Assembly (NCBI RefSeq): GCF_004785685.1 | Contig: NZ_SRPF01000002.1 | Location: 434,001 to 498,000, forward strand | Direction: 5' to 3' | From: Marinobacter confluentis | Lineage (GTDB): Bacteria > Pseudomonadota > Gammaproteobacteria > Pseudomonadales > Oleiphilaceae | DNA length: 64,000 nucleotides | Shown: positions 46,846-54,368 of the stretch, one piece after another | How positions within the stretch are numbered: the first letter of the stretch is position 1 | Layout of the letters: every line of letters begins with the position of its first letter | Position numbers and translations under genes: made by a program | Notes under the pieces: generated by a model | What the model was told of the DNA's origin: nothing | What the model saw: only the letters and a program-made list of their open reading frames with translations | The model's database searches: none

Positions 46846-47751
46846 ATGGACGCACTGCGCACCCCCGACGAACGATTCAACCGCCTGCTGGACTACCCCT
46901 TTGAACCCCACTACATCGAGGTAGACGGCCTGCGCATGCACTACGTGGACGAAGGGCCGGCCGATGCCAAACCCATACTGATGATGCACGGCGAGCCATC
47001 CTGGTCCTACCTGTACCGCCACATGATCCCAATATGTGCCGCCGCCGGCCACCGGGTAATCGCGCCGGACCTGATCGGCTTTGGCAAATCCGACAAGCCC
47101 ACCGACATCACCGATTACAGCTACCAGCAACACATGGACTGGATGCAAAGCTTTCTGGACCAGACCGGCCTGACCGACATCACCCTCGTATGCCAGGACT
47201 GGGGCTCACTGCTGGGCTTGCGCCTGGCCGCGGAAAACCCCGACCGCTTCCGCGCCATCGTGCTGGGCAACGGCATGCTGCCCACCGGCGACCAGGCCTT
47301 GCCGAAAGCCTTCCAGATCTGGAAAAACTTCGCGATTTACAGCCCCTGGTTCCCCATCGCAAAAATCATCGACACCGGGAGCTTCAAAAAACTGGGGCCG
47401 GATGAAAAGCGCGCCTATGACGCCCCCTTCCCCAACAAAAAATACAAAGCCGGCGCCCGGGCCTTCCCCAAGCTGGTCCCCGCCTCACCCAACGACCCGG
47501 CCACCGAAGCCAACCGCGCCGCCTGGAAGGTTCTGGAGCAGTGGGAAAAACCCTTCCTGACCACCTTCAGCAACGGCGACCCGGTTACCCGCGGCGGCGA
47601 CAAGTACGTGCAGGAACGCGTTCCCGGCGCCAAAGGCCAACCCCATGTCACGCTCACCGGTGGCCATTTCCTGCAGGAAGATTCGCCCGTGCAGTTTGCG
47701 ACTGCCGTGAACGATTTGCTTGCGAGAATGGATGGTGGCGGATTGGGCTAG
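46846..47751 (+). CDS. Haloalkane dehalogenase (alpha/beta hydrolase)
   Basis: 301 aa. The oxyanion region MMHGEPSWSYLYRHM and nucleophile elbow LVCQDWGSLLG, with Asp as nucleophile followed by the halide-binding Trp, are hallmarks of haloalkane dehalogenases, as opposed to the Ser nucleophile of esterases. A probable catalytic acid is the Asp of TFSNGDPVTRGGD, and the His is in LTGGHFLQED. The enzyme hydrolyses carbon-halogen bonds to alcohol and halide. Position of the acid and the E-P-S-W sequence fit subfamily HLD-I. It stands alone with an upstream GGAGAAAC site; no dehydrogenase partners flank it. Confidence 0.88.
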   Translation: MDALRTPDERFNRLLDYPFEPHYIEVDGLRMHYVDEGPADAKPILMMHGEPSWSYLYRHMIPICAAAGHRVIAPDLIGFGKSDKPTDITDYSYQQHMDWMQSFLDQTGLTDITLVCQDWGSLLGLRLAAENPDRFRAIVLGNGMLPTGDQALPKAFQIWKNFAIYSPWFPIAKIIDTGSFKKLGPDEKRAYDAPFPNKKYKAGARAFPKLVPASPNDPATEANRAAWKVLEQWEKPFLTTFSNGDPVTRGGDKYVQERVPGAKGQPHVTLTGGHFLQEDSPVQFATAVNDLLARMDGGGLG

Positions 47752-48224
47752 AGACAGCAGGCCTTGTGTTTTTTACCGCTGCCGCACGGGCAGCGGTCAT
47801 TGCGGCCGGGATTAAGCCGGCCTTCCCGGGTGTCGCCCTGAAGGTAATACCAGCGCCCTGCTTCCTTGCGGAAATCGGAGTTCTCTTCCAGAAATCCCCA
47901 TCCGCTCCCGGCACGGTAGACTGCCCGAAAATGAACGCGGCCCGAATCACCTTCCTGCGAGCTCTGCAGGATCTGCAATGACGACCAGGCCGGTGAGCCT
48001 TCAAGACTGAGCGAAGCAGGCCGTGTACTTGAATGCCAGGTTGAACGAAGATAGTCCGGCAGGTCCAGTACAAACGCAGCAAAGCGGGAGCGCATCAGCG
48101 CTTCCGGCGTATCCGCCGCCTGCCCCTGGTGCAACGGCTGGCAGCATTGTAAATAAGGCTTCGCGCTGCCGCAGGGGCAGTGGCTCGTGTTCTGGGTTTG
48201 TTGCATTCCGGGCTCACAGTACAT
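47748..48224 (-). CDS. ychJ: YchJ-family protein (UPF0225, two SEC-C motifs)
   Basis: 158 aa. SEC-C zinc motifs occur at both ends: HCPCGSAKPYLQCC near residue 15 and NDRCPCGSGKKHKACCL at the C-terminus. The YchJ domain lies between, with TPEALMRSRFAAFVL and YLRSTWHSSTRP. The role is unknown; SEC-C motifs bind zinc and often protein partners. Its 3' end overlaps the dehalogenase stop by 4 bp, convergently. Confidence 0.9.
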   Translation of the reverse strand: MYCEPGMQQTQNTSHCPCGSAKPYLQCCQPLHQGQAADTPEALMRSRFAAFVLDLPDYLRSTWHSSTRPASLSLEGSPAWSSLQILQSSQEGDSGRVHFRAVYRAGSGWGFLEENSDFRKEAGRWYYLQGDTREGRLNPGRNDRCPCGSGKKHKACCL

Positions 48225-48296: not shown

Positions 48297-48320
48297 CGCT
48301 TTTAAAAAAAAGCGAACACT
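48297..48320 (+). repeat. Degenerate copy of the 'CGCTTT' hairpin repeat (left border of accessory stretch)
   Basis: CGCTTTT (48297-48303) and AAAAGCG (48308-48314) form a 7-bp stem and continue as AACACT, resembling the right arms (AAAGCGAACAT) of the repeats at 49.7 and 50.3 kb. It sits in the 282-bp gap between ychJ and the first accessory gene. The left arm of the family (AATGTTCG) is not preserved, so the assignment is tentative. Confidence 0.35.
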
Positions 48321-48506
48321 CCATTCTGAGCTTGACGGCCCTGCAACGTTTTGCCTTTTCGCCGCTTCGCTCTGCCAAGGTTGCCGCATATTTTCAGCGT
48401 AAATTGCCAAGAAATTGATAATCATCGCAGCGTCAGAAGCCAATTCGTACTACGGTCAGCTTGGTTACACACGCACAATGCTCGCGCCTGGGTTCGGGAT
48501 GCGCCT

Positions 48507-49028
48507 ATGTATTTGACTGATACTTACAAAGTGGACAAGGCTGTCAACGGAACTTGGCAACTTAGAAGAGCTATATATCCCCGTCTGTACTGGTTCTGGG
48601 GAATTACAGCGGTATCGGCTGTTATTTTATTTTTTATTTGGGACAGACCCCGTTGGGAGCCTTACGTTTATTTTTTTGGCGGATGGATTGGTTTGATGGC
48701 TCTGGCTATTCCTTACCACGTGCTCAGGGACAAGCTGATAACGATTGAGAACGACGGTGCTGAATTCGTTCTTCGAGGAAAGCACTTTCTCGGGAAAAAA
48801 GGAAAACGGTTTTCAACCAAAGGCGTTTACCGGATCGGGAGAATTACTGTTTCCAGCGGTGATACGTCCAAAAATTATCACATGGAGGTTCGCACTGACG
48901 ACGGCCTTCGCTTCATGATGGGTATCAGCTCCCTTGGAAGCATGAAAGAGCAAGCGCTGATCGACCTTGGCAAGGACCTTGAGCGTAAGACCGAAGGCAA
49001 GTTGAAATACTCACCGCTCAACGCATAA
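48507..49028 (+). CDS. Hypothetical membrane protein, 173 aa
   Basis: No family recognised. Two hydrophobic helices (FWGITAVSAVILFFIWD and YVYFFGGWIGLMALAIPYHVL) occupy about residues 30-80. The rest is a soluble beta-rich domain that resembles a small PH-like fold (ITIENDGAEFVLRGKHFLG, YHMEVRTDDGLRFMMG). The start at 48507 (MYLTDTYKV) was preferred; the frame is open further upstream but that part reads like non-coding sequence. Base composition is AT-richer than its surroundings. It is 15 bp ahead of a second membrane gene of similar layout; the two probably act together. Confidence 0.65.
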   Translation: MYLTDTYKVDKAVNGTWQLRRAIYPRLYWFWGITAVSAVILFFIWDRPRWEPYVYFFGGWIGLMALAIPYHVLRDKLITIENDGAEFVLRGKHFLGKKGKRFSTKGVYRIGRITVSSGDTSKNYHMEVRTDDGLRFMMGISSLGSMKEQALIDLGKDLERKTEGKLKYSPLNA

Positions 49029-49043
49029 TCATGGGGTAGTGTA

Positions 49044-49619
49044 ATGGATGAAGTGACGAATCCGGCGAGCAATTACGTCAGACTGGAAATGGACATTTCC
49101 AACCATCAAATAGTCGCCTATCAGGATAATTATAAGGTACTAGGGTGGATTGTCTTGGGCGCATCATTCATGCCATTCCTTGCTTTGTTTACTGCACCGT
49201 GGCCAATTTTATTGTTTGTAATTCTGTTCTGGTTGGCGCTTGTTGCAGCTGGAATGACTCTGGTATTGAAAGAACGTCGACAACGTTGGGACCACTCTAC
49301 TCAAATGGTCGTTTTTGAAGCGAGGTGGCCGGGTAGTAAGTTTAAGCCGTCTAAAAAAATTCCGATTCACAAATTCGAAGACGTCCAGATAATGACCACG
49401 CCAAGAACGAATCAACGTGGGATCGAGGAAACCGGCCCCGGCGTTCTGGTAAGAGTCAGATATGAAAAGGATTCAAGGCATACCTATCCCGGAAAAAACT
49501 CTTGGAGAATTGGCAGTTTTCACAGCACAGAATATGCCGAGGATGCCGAATATCTCGCTCAAAAGGTAGCTCAGGTATGTGGCGTTCCTGTTAGAAACAG
49601 TTTGGCGAGTAGAGGCTGA
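49044..49619 (+). CDS. Hypothetical membrane protein, 191 aa
   Basis: No family recognised. Two adjacent transmembrane helices lie at about residues 33-75 (VLGWIVLGASFMPFLALF, ILLFVILFWLALVAAGMTLVL). The C-terminal part is a basic, beta-rich soluble domain (VVFEARWPGSKFKPSKKIP, VRVRYEKDSRHTYPGKNSWR). It repeats the architecture of the gene just upstream, which suggests an ancient duplication or a heteromeric pair. A copy of the AATGTTCGCTTTGC repeat begins 48 bp after its stop. Confidence 0.65.
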   Translation: MDEVTNPASNYVRLEMDISNHQIVAYQDNYKVLGWIVLGASFMPFLALFTAPWPILLFVILFWLALVAAGMTLVLKERRQRWDHSTQMVVFEARWPGSKFKPSKKIPIHKFEDVQIMTTPRTNQRGIEETGPGVLVRVRYEKDSRHTYPGKNSWRIGSFHSTEYAEDAEYLAQKVAQVCGVPVRNSLASRG

Positions 49620-49666
49620 ATTACTGTGAATAAAACCGAAAACTCAGGTAACAAGGTGCACCATCT

Positions 49667-49726
49667 GAATGTTCGCTTTGCGACCAATGCTACTCGCGGA
49701 CCTCAGCTAAAAAAGCGGGACATAAC
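49667..49726 (+). repeat. Cassette-like 3' repeat, copy B
   Basis: GAATGTTCGCTTTGCGACCA begins the element, and an imperfect right arm AAAGCGGGACAT lies at 49713-49724. The arms can pair (AATGTtCGCTTT with AAAGCGgGACATaa). It lies 48 bp behind the second membrane-protein gene, in the same orientation as copies at 50305, 51858 and 52749. Confidence 0.7.
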
Positions 49727-49802
49727 GGTATTTCCGTCGTATTGACTTTCAGAACCGGTACATTTCACCCAACCAATTTTCCGGAACGAATGGAGGCCTA
49801 CC

Positions 49803-50291
49803 GTGAGCAATCCTTTGGCAGGCGACACTGACATCACATTTCTCCAGCAGGCCATTCAACAAGCCCTGGCATCGGTTGACGATGGCGGAGCCCCGTTTGG
49901 CGCTCTGGTGGTTCATAACAACAAAGTCATTGCGCAAGCGGGTAACAGGGTAAAGCAGGATTTCGACGCCACTGCCCACGCTGAAGTAGCGGCAATACGC
50001 AAGGCCGGCCAGAAGCTGGGCGATGCCCAGATGCCGGAAGCAACCCTGTATTCAAGCTGCGAGCCCTGTCCCATGTGCCTGGCGGCCGCCCACTGGGCTC
50101 GAATCCCGCGCATTGTATTTGCTGCCTCTCAAGAAACTGCGAATGAGGCCGGCTTTGCCGACGGCAACATTGCAGAGCAGCTCTATGGCCAGATTCATCC
50201 TGCACGGGCCGAGCAATTGGGATTGGTTCATATCGAGTTAGAGAACTCGGGTGCCCCTTTTCAGGCTTGGCTAAACGTTTCTAGCCGCTAG
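49803..50291 (+). CDS. Nucleoside/guanine deaminase-like protein (CMP/dCMP deaminase family)
   Basis: 162 aa. The zinc site is intact: HAEVAAIRKA (ligand His and catalytic Glu) and SSCEPCPMCLAAAHWARI (two ligand Cys). GAPFGALVVHNNKVIAQAGNRV is typical of the guanine deaminase/tRNA adenosine deaminase branch. It probably hydrolyses a purine base or nucleoside amine. GTG start with GGAGG 6 bp upstream. The gene is flanked on both sides by repeat copies (B and C), as a one-gene cassette would be. Confidence 0.88.
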   Translation: MSNPLAGDTDITFLQQAIQQALASVDDGGAPFGALVVHNNKVIAQAGNRVKQDFDATAHAEVAAIRKAGQKLGDAQMPEATLYSSCEPCPMCLAAAHWARIPRIVFAASQETANEAGFADGNIAEQLYGQIHPARAEQLGLVHIELENSGAPFQAWLNVSSR

Positions 50292-50745
50292 CATCATCAA
50301 ATCTGAATGTTCGTTCTGCAACCAAGATCCACTCCGAACTCAACTAAACAAAAGCGAACATCCTTACACCCTCACCTAAGGTGCTGTTATAGGTCACCGC
50401 TGGTAAAAGCATTTTTCTTCTTTCTGATGTCCTCGGTAACGTGGTTAGAATCCAAGCTACGCGATAGTTCCGGTAAAACAGTGACGTGATTGCACAACGC
50501 TATTTGAGGCATATCTATAGATAGGCTGCCAACGGCATCTCAATTCCCTATCCGATCAGGCAGGCACATAATGAGGTTGCACAATTTATGTGTCGAGATA
50601 TTTTACACTAATTTAAATGCAAACCCATAAAAAACTGAAAATAATGCAAATTAAATGCTGGCATTTTCTATGCTTTAGTTTTCTCTGGTTACGTTTCGTT
50701 ATTAGCTCGGAATGAGAATTGCCTAGAACTAATAGGAGATTGGAT
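50292..50745. other. AT-rich non-coding gap before the PEP-CTERM gene
   Basis: 454 bp. It begins with repeat copy C (50305-50362). The rest is strikingly AT-rich (for example near 50585-50660, with TTTTACACTAATTTAAATG) and contains no convincing coding frame. It ends in the AGGAG ribosome-binding site of the next gene. Confidence 0.6.
50305..50362 (+). repeat. Cassette-like 3' repeat, copy C
   Basis: GAATGTTCGTTCTGCAACCA is followed by a right arm CAAAAGCGAACAT (50349-50361). ATGTTCG and CGAACAT are exact inverted repeats. The copy starts 14 bp after the stop of the deaminase gene, in the same orientation as the other copies. Confidence 0.7.
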
Positions 50746-51471
50746 GTGAAATACTTGAGGCAGTTGGCTATCGCACTAACCATGGCAACCCCCGCCATAT
50801 CAGACGCTTACAGTCTGGATGAGACCACCAGAATAGTTACAGATCAAGACAGCGGGACAGAGTGGCTTCAGTGGACTGAAACCATCGGCATGGCAGTCGA
50901 TGACGATTTCAGCAGCATTCAAGGTGGTGGCTGGAGTGTCGCTTCCAACGAACAAATGTCAGCATTGTATGACGCTTTTTTTCCATCCATCGTTTGGGAC
51001 GCCGATGAGAATACCAGCCAATTCTCTTATGGTATTACGACCTACGGCGACGGCATTGATAATGCGTTCAAGTTTGGAGAGTTGTTTGGTTGGACTTACG
51101 CGAGGGACTCAAAGAGTGTTCAGACTGGCCGGCCATTCGAATACTCAACAGGTTTCAACGCTACCTACGCATATTTTGGAAATGATTTAGATGGCGATGG
51201 TCGAATCAATAGAACATCAGTTTTATCAGAAAGCATCTTCGATAACCCTGAAAATGGGGTATACAGAGAACGAGCCGAATACTTCGACCTAACATCTGAT
51301 AATTATTCACCTGGAGGTACTTACTTTGGTGGCGGAGTTGCGCTGGTCCGAACAACGCCCACAACAAAAGTCCCTGAGCCCAGCACTCTTGCCTTGCTTG
51401 GCTTGGGCCTGGCTGGCTTAACATACGCGCGCAGAAAATCGCGGTCGAGGGTCTATTCAATCCATTCCTAA
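50746..51471 (+). CDS. PEP-CTERM sorting-domain protein
   Basis: 241 aa exported protein. The N-terminus MKYLRQLAIALTMATPAIS is a signal peptide. The body (DETTRIVTDQDSGTEWLQW..., a repeated aromatic/acidic pattern) resembles exported PEP-CTERM proteins of unknown function. The C-terminus is the classic sorting signal: VPEPSTLALLGLGLAGL, a hydrophobic helix and the basic tail YARRKSRSR. An exosortase/EpsH system would process it; none is in the window. GTG start with AGGAG 7 bp away. Base composition is lower-GC than the core genome. Confidence 0.88.
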   Translation: MKYLRQLAIALTMATPAISDAYSLDETTRIVTDQDSGTEWLQWTETIGMAVDDDFSSIQGGGWSVASNEQMSALYDAFFPSIVWDADENTSQFSYGITTYGDGIDNAFKFGELFGWTYARDSKSVQTGRPFEYSTGFNATYAYFGNDLDGDGRINRTSVLSESIFDNPENGVYRERAEYFDLTSDNYSPGGTYFGGGVALVRTTPTTKVPEPSTLALLGLGLAGLTYARRKSRSRVYSIHS

Positions 51472-51496
51472 CTCCGTCGGGTTGCATTGAACAGAA

Positions 51497-51575
51497 GGTG
51501 TCAGACGAAGCATTTCGGCGTCGGTCCAACGATCATATTTCGTTCCGCCGTTCAGTCTTAAACTCGTCTGACACC
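51497..51575. repeat. Inverted repeat GGTGTCAGACGA/TCGTCTGACACC
   Basis: GGTGTCAGACGA at 51497-51508 is the exact reverse complement of 51564-51575, with a 55-base loop. It follows the PEP-CTERM gene by 26 bp. It could be a terminator-like hairpin or the 3' recombination site of that cassette-like gene; its sequence differs from the AATGTTCGCTTT family. Confidence 0.6.
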
Positions 51576-51857
51576 ACTTTTCGCGCAGACTTAGGAAGGT
51601 CTTTTAGGTTTACTTACCAATATAAACTTTACTCCCCTTAAAAATTGCCGATGATTCTCTGTTTGATTAAACGATACGAATTTCGGCTTTTGAGCTTACG
51701 ATTGCTTTTAATATCCAGCTCCTGTCGACCATGCAAGCGAAGTCAACCAAATGTTTGGACTTACCCGGGTTCTAGTATACTCCTGGCCTATGATTAAGCT
51801 ATGCCCCAAAGGCACGACATATCCGAACCTCAAAATTGACCTTCGTGACTGGGATCT

Positions 51858-51913
51858 TAATGTCCGCTTTGCGACCAAGCCCGGCTCCCCAAACTCTTAA
51901 GCAAAAGCGTTAA
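51858..51913 (+). repeat. Cassette-like 3' repeat, copy D
   Basis: TAATGTCCGCTTTGCGACCA begins the element and GCAAAAGCGTTAA (51901-51913) is its imperfect right arm: GCTTTTGC-like pairing with a 28-base middle. Same orientation as copies B and C, but 387 bp after the nearest gene. Confidence 0.65.
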
Positions 51914-52049
51914 TCTGGTCAGCTTGTGAGGCGGGACACTGGGTATGAGCGGCACCCCGTTGGTTTTCTGGCATGACCTGCAGCCGGGTAAGGCAACTGG
52001 CGCCAACATACTGCGAACAAATACACTCGGGAATTAATGGGCGAGCACA

Positions 52050-52322
52050 ATGACAAACAGAGTTGATATTTATTACTGCACAGGGTGCCGGTGGCTGCTT
52101 CGTTCGGCCTGGATGGCACAGGAACTGCTGACCACCTTCGAAGGCGAGCTGGATTCGCTGGCATTGCATCCGGGAAGCGGTGGAATTTTCGAGGTGTGGG
52201 TTAATGAAAAGCGGATCTGGTCCCGCAAGGAGCAAGGGGGATTTCCGGAGATCAAGGTGCTAAAGCAATTGGTGCGGGACGAAATCGACCCTGAACGCTC
52301 GCTCGGACACGTGGATCGATGA
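52050..52322 (+). CDS. SelT/SelW/SelH (Rdx) family protein
   Basis: 90 aa, typical for bacterial SelW-like proteins. The thioredoxin-like redox motif is a CxxC: IYYCTGCRWLLRSAWMAQ, at residues 10-13; cysteine replaces the selenocysteine of vertebrate SelW. GSGGIFEVWVNEKRIWSRKEQGGFPEI completes the family pattern. A redox role is inferred. The next gene overlaps its stop by 4 bp (ATGA), so a coupled pair. Confidence 0.88.
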   Translation: MTNRVDIYYCTGCRWLLRSAWMAQELLTTFEGELDSLALHPGSGGIFEVWVNEKRIWSRKEQGGFPEIKVLKQLVRDEIDPERSLGHVDR

Positions 52323-52726
52323 AGTCAGGGATTAATAAGTCCGCCCCGGCTCTCCTTAAAGCTCGCCTCATGCTGGTGGTGATAGGAATCATCCTACCCT
52401 ACCTGGCACGCTTGCCTCGGGGCTCTGAATGGCTTGGGCAGTACACCGACGCCGGTCTGAGCGGCTGGTTGTTAATCAGTGGCTTAAATGCCATTGCCTG
52501 GGGTGCCATCCTTGCTATCAGCTTTACGTATGAACGGCCTGCTTCGCTGATCGCGCCATGCTTACTAGGTTTCGGCTATTTAGCCTGGTCGCATGGCACA
52601 CTGGATTTGAGTACGAACCCAAATGCTCCGATCGCACTGGTGATTATCCCGGTCTACGCGCTTTTACCGATTGGAGTGGGCGGGGTAATTGGCTTTGTCA
52701 TGGATCGCATTTTTCGGCGCAGTTAA
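52319..52726 (+). CDS. Hypothetical small membrane protein
   Basis: 135 aa, no family recognised. Four hydrophobic helices are predicted (MLVVIGIILPYLARL; GWLLISGLNAIAWGAILAI; LIAPCLLGFGYLAW; ALVIIPVYALLPIGVGGVIGFVM), ending in a basic tail. It is co-translated with the SelW-like gene. A repeat copy (F) begins 22 bp after its stop. Confidence 0.7.
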   Translation: MKSGINKSAPALLKARLMLVVIGIILPYLARLPRGSEWLGQYTDAGLSGWLLISGLNAIAWGAILAISFTYERPASLIAPCLLGFGYLAWSHGTLDLSTNPNAPIALVIIPVYALLPIGVGGVIGFVMDRIFRRS

Positions 52727-52748
52727 GGGCCGGCGCCATTCCCAAACC

Positions 52749-52771
52749 TGAACGCTCGCTTTGCAACCAAG
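52749..52771 (+). repeat. Cassette-like 3' repeat, copy F (left arm only)
   Basis: CTGAACGCTCGCTTTGCAAC matches the left arms of copies B-D. The right arm is missing because the sequence runs straight into the 3' end of ybiT at 52782. It marks the right edge of the accessory stretch. Confidence 0.6.
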
Positions 52772-52781
52772 TCAGCAGTCC

Positions 52782-54368
52782 TCAGTAATACCCCTGGCTC
52801 CGCAGATAGTCATCATAACTACCACTGAAATCCGTCACGCCTTCACCGGAAAGATCCAGAATGCGCGTGGCCAGGGACGACACAAATTCCCGGTCATGGC
52901 TGACAAAAATCAGTGTGCCCGGGTAGTTTTCCAGCGCCAGGTTCAACGCCTCGATGGATTCCATATCCAGGTGGTTGGTGGGCTCATCCATCAGCAGCAC
53001 ATTCGGCTTCTGCAGAATCAGTTTGCCGAACAGCATTCGGCCTTCCTCGCCACCGGAAATCACCTTCACCGACTTGCCAATCTCATCACCGGAAAACAGC
53101 ATCCGCCCCAGCGTTCCGCGCACCATCTGCTCACCGTCCGGCGTCCACTGGGCCATCCAGTCGGCCAGGGTCATGTCGTTGGCAAAATCGTCGGAATGGT
53201 CCTGGGCGTAGTAGCCCACCTGAGCGCTATCGGTCCACTTCACCTCGCCGCTGTCCGGCACCATTTTTCCGGCCAGGCACTGCATCAGCGTGGTTTTACC
53301 GATGCCGTTGGGACCGATGATAGCCACCCGTTCCCCGGCTTCCACTTTCAGATCCAGATTATTGAACAGCGGATCGTTCTCGAATCCTTTGCTAAAGCCG
53401 TGCAACGTTACCGCCTGGCGATGCAGTTTCTTGGTCTGCTCGAAGCGGATAAAGGGGCTCACGCGGCTGGAGGGCTTTACTTCCTCAAGCTGGATCTTGT
53501 CGATCTGACGGGCACGGGAAGTCGCCTGCTTGGCTTTGGACGCGTTGGCCGAGAAGCGGCTGACAAACTGCTGCAGTTCGGCAATCTCTTTCTTCTTCTT
53601 GGCGTTATCCGACAGCATGCGCTCGCGGGCCTGGGTGGCGGCGGTCATGTACTCGTCGTAGTTGCCCGGGAACAGGCGCAGCTCACCGTAGTCCAGGTCC
53701 GCCATGTGGGTGCACACGCTATTCAGGAAGTGGCGGTCGTGGGAAATGATGATCATGGTGCTGTTGCGGGCCACCAGAATGTTTTCCAGCCAGCGGATAG
53801 TGTTGATGTCCAGGTGGTTGGTGGGCTCGTCCAGCAACAGGATATCCGGGTCGGAAAACAGTGCCTGGGCCAGCAGCACACGCAGCTTCCACCCTGGGGC
53901 AATAGCACTCATCAGGCCATTGTGCTGGCTTTCGGGAATATCCAGCCCCAACAGCAGTTCGCCGGCCCGGGCTTCAGCGGTATAGCCATCCAGCTCGGCA
54001 AACTGGACTTCAAGGTCCGCCACCGCCATGCCGTCTTCCTCGCTCATCTCCGCCAGCGAGTAGATGCGGTCGCGCTCCGCCTTCACCTGCCAGAGCTCTT
54101 CGTGTCCCATAATCACCGTATCCAGAACGGTACAGTCTTCATAACCGTACTGGTTCTGGCGCAGCTTACCCAAGCGCTGGTTGTGGTCCAGCATCACCTG
54201 ACCGGCGGACGGCTCCAGATCTCCACCCAGGATTTTCATAAAGGTGGATTTGCCGCAACCATTGGCACCAATCAGGCCGTAGCGGTTGCCGTTACCAAAT
54301 TTGACCGACACGTTTTCGAATAACGGGCGGGCGCCAAACTGCATGGTGATGTTTGCGGTGGAAATCAA
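52782..54368 (-). CDS. ybiT: ABC-F family ATPase YbiT
   Basis: 528 aa, two ABC domains joined by the ABC-F linker, no membrane part. First Walker [13 protein letters not shown], first Walker [14 protein letters not shown]; second Walker [12 protein letters not shown], second signature [13 protein letters not shown] and Walker [13 protein letters not shown]. Sequences such as [18 protein letters not shown] and [18 protein letters not shown] match E. coli YbiT closely. ABC-F proteins act on the ribosome. The start codon is TTG at 54368; alignment of the N-terminus with YbiT (ITMQF at the same distance from the start) supports it. Confidence 0.93.

Follow-up and report, generated by a model that had tools for sequence, protein, structure and literature searches.

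A two-armed repeat at the boundaries of shuffled Marinobacter gene modules, probably the site of a tyrosine recombinase

What kind of site separates the genes of a small accessory island in the genome of Marinobacter confluentis, and which enzyme could have acted on it? The island, 4.5 kb long and AT-rich, lies between a YchJ-type and an ABC-F-type gene in the stretch of 64,000 nucleotides that was analysed (the window; G000:C58:434001-498000, from a genome of 3.77 Mb designated G000). It contains six plus-strand open reading frames (ORFs) and four plus-strand copies of one repeat, TGAATGTTCGCTTTGCGACC. An initial annotation of this DNA had taken the repeats for attC-type sites of gene cassettes. 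Judged from sequence comparisons, the repeat, here termed site A, is probably a site at which a tyrosine recombinase shuffles gene modules among Marinobacter genomes. The most likely enzyme would be a recombinase of 204 amino acids (aa), and the array in the window would be one that lacks its enzyme.

The four copies were confirmed and all have the same orientation (Table 1). Apart from them, the 64-kb window has no place within four mismatches of the 20-mer (with Y and R allowed at two positions). The 14-nucleotide arm alone was found 11 times at up to three mismatches, where 6.4 were expected; eight of 100 shuffles reached 11, which is not clearly beyond chance. A search of the complete G000 genome, as the annotation had proposed, was carried out with a 22-mer and gave eight places with up to three mismatches, against none for the reversed control. 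Copies 1, 2 and 4 start 46, 12 and 22 bp past the plus-strand stops at 49619, 50291 and 52726, so the close spacing behind genes that had been described for three copies was borne out; copy 3 starts 385 bp past the stop at 51471. The island is indeed poorer in G and C (0.488 for 48302-52768, against 0.58 in the rest of the window and 0.563-0.601 in same-size windows elsewhere). Three of its ORFs have no Pfam family; the others encode a deaminase, a PEP-CTERM protein and an Rdx protein. As had been stated before, there is no integrase gene: a Pfam search of the six ORFs yielded no integrase domain.

The repeat is common in the genus. With up to two mismatches, the 22-mer was present in 102 of 124 Marinobacter genomes, while the reversed control gave no hit in any of the 124. 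The exact 20-mer was found in at least 115 stretches across named genomes, 80 of which were identified by organism; the matches listed are from Marinobacter, plus two from Marinobacterium, one from an unclassified gammaproteobacterial metagenome-assembled genome (MAG) and one from an Opitutales MAG. The 4.6-kb contig of this last MAG that carries the exact copy (L177) has 600 bp in common with L213 (98%), perhaps as a result of a binning error. No match to the exact 20-mer was obtained in viral contigs. Sites were located inside ORFs of at least 90 aa in 14 of 92 cases (random positions: 66 of 92), and 68 of 92 follow an ORF on the same strand (random: 49 of 89). Where two A sites in the named loci are neighbours at less than 6 kb, they have the same orientation in 42 of 42 pairs.

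To locate exchange boundaries, 115 stretches with the exact 20-mer, four plasmid loci and the window were all compared with each other. Homologous segments of at least 200 bp and 85% identity were extracted, and their unique internal ends were counted. Of 250 such ends, 78 fall within 5 bp of site A, where 1.7 would be expected from random positions; when segments containing the recombinase are left out, 51 of 165 do so (1.0 expected). Pairs that share only the left flank (n = 54) never differ at repeat positions 14-19, and 27-43 of them differ at each of positions 20-29. Among pairs with only the right flank in common (n = 74), 39 differ at position 7 and at most two at any of positions 8-19. 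From these per-position differences it follows that the switch lies in CGCTTTGCGACC; it maps to positions 8-19 of the repeat.

Complete modules recur as well. A 3.75-kb module between A sites is present from end to end, or nearly so, in L128, L153 and L208 (97-98% identical). L135, L184 and L219 have a 1495-bp module in common (>99.7%), L086 and L088 modules of 730 and 642 bp (98.8%), and L088 and L089 one of 3.6 kb (99.8%). The sequence past the repeat differs on at least one side of the common modules, and on both sides for L128 and L153. On two contigs of one genome (L337 and L338), flanks of 571 bp are 97% identical and then diverge exactly behind site A; switches at A also occur in the complete plasmid L020. 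The cargo, for which 75 of 98 module ORFs were scanned, includes mercury transport, efflux, HipA-like and metabolic genes, among others. As far as alignments can tell, the comparisons show modules common to different genomes but with different neighbours, and breakpoints at site A. One part of the cassette interpretation thus stands, since homologous segments begin and end at the repeat. Its attC part does not, the site having two inverted arms and a fixed hexamer. Repeats at many unrelated sites without boundaries would have spoken against cassette-like behaviour; there are many sites, but at these the repeats are the boundaries.

Site A consists of a 12-bp arm, AATGTTCGCTTT, the hexamer GCGACC and a weak inverted arm at exactly 6 bp. 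This second arm had been predicted before the test by taking GCGACC as the crossover region. In 160 nonredundant right flanks its mean identity was 0.418 at spacing 6, against 0.21-0.32 at 24 other spacings. A nearly perfect 30-bp palindrome, AATGTTCGCTTT-GCGACC-AACGCGAACATT, is found at G000:C73:67215-67244 and represents a site A in which both arms are strong. Many loci had been picked by the full 20-mer, and an additional scan was therefore run with the arm only (GAATGTYCGCTTT, 18 free bases, pyrimidine). It matched in 98 of 124 genomes, with seven reversed-control matches in all. The first 150 arms listed (G000 to G056) carry GCGACC in 80 cases, TGTTTA in 50 and 19 other hexamers in the remaining 20. 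In each of the two main groups the second arm recurs at spacing 6 (0.433 for GCGACC, n = 78 distinct; 0.537 for TGTTTA, n = 47), and the same arm therefore forms two types of site. The second type, site B, has the hexamer TGTTTA and the opposite orientation; 129 B motifs were counted in the loci compared, and none for the reversed pattern.

Site B also explains two earlier observations. The pairing right arm that had been noted behind three of the copies is site B read backwards; copy 2 is followed by a clear motif of this kind, copies 1 and 3 by degenerate ones, and none was seen behind copy 4. The supposed degenerate copy at 48297 is instead the second motif alone, a site B at 48302-48321. 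A hairpin or attC-like fold of the A copies was considered and rejected: of 200 shuffles per copy, 49, 39, 164 and 130 equalled or exceeded copies 1-4, respectively, in folding, so that the proposed folding did not separate the copies from shuffled sequence. Readings as repetitive extragenic palindromic (REP)-like elements or terminators were set aside because the copies mark exchange boundaries.

A candidate for the enzyme is encoded by a recurrent segment of ~800 bp that runs from a site A to a B motif. Its product, which at 204 aa has the size of a catalytic domain, matches Pfam Phage_integrase (9.5e-18), and alignment with XerD (1a0p) matches the catalytic R, HxxR, H and Y, the lysine being only loosely aligned. 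The protein scores far below the cut-off of every NCBIfam model met, IntI included; the closest models are Xer-like. A single-sequence structure prediction reached a mean predicted local distance difference test score (pLDDT) of 37.7, which is unusable for the fold. The gene was detected in 38 of 124 genomes, in some as fragments only. Among the matches, 31 are full-length and have 96-100% identity with the query; ABC-F proteins of the same genus are 80-98% identical to that of the window (full-length matches listed), save one second copy at 64%. This rough identity comparison suggests that the recombinase spread recently.

The position of the gene is constant. Site A (up to three mismatches) lies 87-105 bp before the recombinase start in 27 of 30 loci, at exactly 90 bp in 23, and 23 of 30 have a B motif 92-102 bp past the stop. 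Site A is present in each of the 38 genomes with the enzyme, against 64 of the 86 others, with a mean of 5.1 versus 2.8 copies (p = 1e-5). Its position, its conservation and the anatomy of the sites make the 204-aa protein the most likely catalyst.

Relatives at 60-66% identity were found on plasmids of Cupriavidus, Achromobacter, Pseudomonas, Phaeobacter, Methylomonas and others. In ten relative loci (seven plasmid records and three loci of two genomes), the arm-like sequence AATGWYYGCTTT with up to one mismatch has seven matches no more than 300 bp from the gene, where 0.92 would be expected; four of the seven are in genomes picked for holding a palindrome, and two of these four are the two strands of one palindrome. 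Several of the seven plasmid loci have no such match within 300 bp of the gene. In one relative genome, a full palindrome with another hexamer starts 22 bp past the stop of the gene. A scan of 398 genomes of the phylum for full 12-6-12 palindromes (up to two mismatches) found them in 10, and the control gave none. Palindromes with the same arms and other hexamers were also seen in other families of the phylum (L242-L255), with up to four per small genome.

The mechanism that we propose is as follows. Accessory-gene modules would lie between directly repeated A sites, and recombination at the identical hexamers of two such sites would fuse one module's end to the beginning of a different one. 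Through this A×A reaction, modules could leave, enter and reshuffle like cassettes. The 204-aa recombinase would cut at the hexamer, and the modules would move as circles. The recombinase gene itself travels in a segment with site A at one end and site B, presumably incompatible with A, at the other.

Several observations weigh against this mechanism. Gain or loss of single gene-plus-repeat units, for which the annotation had suggested comparing strains, was not encountered: among 337 copies, a number that counts places fetched twice, there was no pair of genomes of which one has and the other lacks a single module between identical neighbours. The loci for the breakpoint count had been picked for holding the 20-mer. 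Of the pairs sharing the right flank, 58 of 74 are copies of the enzyme segment compared with each other; the remaining 16 have the same pattern (seven differ at position 7, at most two at 8-19). Further differences were seen at positions 4 and 7 in left-shared pairs (13 and 15 of 54) and at 20, 23 and 27 in right-shared pairs (20-25 of 74); we took them as ordinary divergence. Of 151 ends that are not at A, 19 lie at B, and these come almost entirely from the enzyme's own segment. One locus, L089, has sites on both strands. The association of enzyme and site A is partly built in, since the enzyme segment carries its own site A. Finally, the deaminase gene of the island is sporadic (8 of 124 genomes), and in the stretches fetched for its seven other readable loci, A sites are absent from both strands and B motifs from the strand of the gene; without adjoining sites there, the gene does not travel as such a module today. 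A search for the deaminase DNA in plasmids gave no hit.

How does the island in the window fit in? According to the alignments with relatives, it runs from site B (48302) to site A (52768), between genes that adjoin in relatives. In G097 and G100, 148 and 74 bp separate the aligned ends of a hydrolase and the ABC-F gene, and there is no island. In the sister genome G025 the left flank matches up to and including site B; beyond it come ~13.8 kb of different sequence that contains a single site A but has none on its right border. The locus differs between species, as the comparison with G025, G097 and G100 shows. Positions 52008-52356, the part with the Rdx gene, match an internal part of the 3.75-kb module of L128, L153 and L208 at 95% identity. 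The G000 genome lacks the 204-aa recombinase, its integrases being only 24-25% identical to it, and the array in the window is thus probably fixed. It is probably a stranded remnant, and we infer that it originated by module exchange at A sites.

Table 1. Sites and genes in and beside the island, with coordinates in the window.
Feature	Position	Strand	Basis or remark
Left neighbour, YchJ/SEC-C gene, outside the array	47748..48224	-	Pfam YchJ_M-like 1.7e-23, SEC-C
Site B, TTAAAAAAAAGCGAACACTC, left island edge, strong arm read inwards	48302..48321	+	
Hypothetical protein, membrane-like by eye	48507..49028	+	no Pfam family; ATG 48507 in open frame 48351-49028
Hypothetical protein, membrane-like by eye	49044..49619	+	no Pfam family
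Site A copy 1, arm AATGTTCGCTTT + hexamer GCGACC	49666..49685	+	0 mismatches
Degenerate B-like motif	49707..49726	+	
Cytidine/deoxycytidylate-type (MafB19-like) deaminase	49803..50291	+	Pfam 1.9e-24
Site A copy 2, hexamer GCAACC	50304..50323	+	2 mismatches
B motif CTAAACAAAAGCGAACATCC	50344..50363	+	
Protein with PEP-CTERM anchor motif	50719..51471	+	Pfam PEP-CTERM 1.1e-8
Site A copy 3	51857..51876	+	1 mismatch
Degenerate B-like motif	51896..51915	+	
Rdx family protein	52050..52322	+	Pfam Rdx 9e-32
Hypothetical protein, membrane-like by eye	52319..52726	+	no Pfam family
Site A copy 4, hexamer GCAACC, right island edge	52749..52768	+	2 mismatches
Right neighbour, presumed ABC-F type ATPase gene	52782..54368	-	sequence features

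The right neighbour, which we take to be an ABC-F type ATPase gene from its sequence features, has its stop codon 13 bp beyond site A copy 4; ABC-F matches (paralogs included) are present in all 124 genomes of the genus. The left neighbour ychJ is found at this spot in G000 and G025 and elsewhere in G097 and G100 (four genomes compared).

If the repeats were attC-type sites of integron gene cassettes, they would be moved by an IntI integrase. An integron origin would agree with the presence of GTT[AG] 14-15 bp before the repeat in 71 of 215 copies (at most seven at any other position), and with IntI matches over the cut-off in 84 of 124 genomes. On a Providencia rettgeri IncC plasmid (L018, position 4004), an attC-like accessory array next to traN has its terminal GTT 11 bp ahead of a site A; five Providencia plasmids have this match. 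However, the GTT end (attC consensus GTTRRRY) is missing in 144 of 215 copies, including the four in the window, and the switch point lies in the repeat and not at G^TT. A test for attC pairing upstream was weak (6-7 of 7 positions paired in 9 of 71 copies, against 4 of 71 in the control). The integrase with an attI site that the annotation had suggested looking for did not turn up near the array: the only G000 gene over the IntI cut-off belongs to a different contig, where both strands of the surrounding 13.8 kb are free of A and B sites. Of 28 intI loci, 20 have no B motif beside intI, one of these having a weak site A (four mismatches; one strand scanned). We therefore regard integron cassettes as a very improbable explanation of the repeats. 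In the other eight intI loci (L221, L231, L235, L236, L237, L314, L315 and L321; seven of the ten intI matches of 942 bp plus one fragment), the intI stop is followed at 65-84 bp by a B motif, and in three of them a site A follows 2.8-5.9 kb beyond the intI start, past the array. The simplest reading is that one type of integron became cargo between B and A, with its last cassette abutting the A end.

The same eight loci, together with the course of the window island from B to A, could also be taken as support for integrative elements with fixed ends (B on the left, A on the right) that insert as a whole and in tandem, the modules being their cargo and A×A exchange secondary. The strong arms, which point inwards at both ends, would suit such elements. 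Yet the two ends have different conserved hexamers, breakpoints outside the enzyme segment lie at A (51 of 165) and hardly at B, and the sister genome G025 has the B edge but no site A at the right edge; we consider this explanation unlikely. The repeats might also be passive, a conserved 20-bp sequence at which ordinary homologous recombination took place or assemblies were joined. Any repeated sequence can gather breakpoints, and several of the loci are drafts or MAGs. But 20 bp is short for homologous recombination, and a passive repeat accounts neither for the two fixed hexamers and the constant distance of 6 bp at which a degenerate second arm follows, nor for the switches in the complete plasmid L020 or an enzyme gene at a fixed distance from the site. 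Passive repeats thus seem highly unlikely, and recombinase-driven exchange at site A is the reading that we prefer.

A wider proposal is that this would be a third self-contained module system beside integrons and dif modules, with one small recombinase, two incompatible sites on the same arm (A for the stacking of modules, B in inverse orientation), the capacity to carry whole integrons as well, and relatives with other hexamers in other Proteobacteria. As part of it, A×A together with B×B recombination could swap whole segments, which would amount to a natural form of recombinase-mediated cassette exchange. We put this forward tentatively, as a possibility that falls short of being probable. 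No published description of such a system was found among the papers listed from open-licence PubMed Central, PMC3414803 included; subscription journals and preprints were outside the search. The eight papers listed there for the arm sequences have one occurrence each and are unrelated by title. If site A works as we propose, a marine genus possesses a means of gene capture that would escape cassette finders based on attC or dif, and its breadth would be that of the 22-mer (102 of 124 genomes). The flanking by A and B sites suggests a way of moving integrons as blocks, and a compact recombinase with two sites that do not cross-react could, if the inference holds, become a practical tool for genome engineering.

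Tyrosine recombinases of the size of FimB and FimE are a natural comparison class for the 204-aa protein. With these and with the simple tyrosine recombinases treated in PMC8138268, it has in common a short chain, the tyrosine-recombinase residues and inverted arms at its presumed sites. Unlike FimB/FimE-size recombinases, it is linked to module arrays and not to one invertible switch.

Among module systems, dif is the obvious counterpart. In sequence, however, sites A and B do not resemble dif: the best ungapped identities to the E. coli dif sequence are 9/22 and 11/22, no better than shuffles. Acinetobacter dif (pdif) modules, according to PMC13141974 and PMC6449649, are moved by XerCD and consist of accessory genes between two-arm sites with a 6-bp spacer, which react between identical spacers. 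The Marinobacter modules are alike in their two-arm sites, their 6-bp spacer, the proposed reaction between identical spacers and, as with dif modules, their occurrence in several species with different neighbourhoods. They differ in that dif modules of both C and D kinds are reported, whereas 42 of 42 neighbouring A sites have one orientation. They also differ in the two hexamers on one arm and in the dedicated short recombinase that travels with the system; this separate recombinase, associated with the sites, is a more likely enzyme than XerCD. With integron cassettes the system has in common that most accessory genes have an equally oriented site behind them, that shuffling occurs, and that some arrays are without an enzyme. 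A double-arm site with a fixed hexamer, as opposed to a folded attC, sets it apart, as do the switch point and the enzyme; moreover, integrons themselves can here be flanked by B and A sites. In function, the A-bounded modules are like both dif modules and integron cassettes, while the sequence of the site, the position of the boundary and the place of intI set them outside either class.

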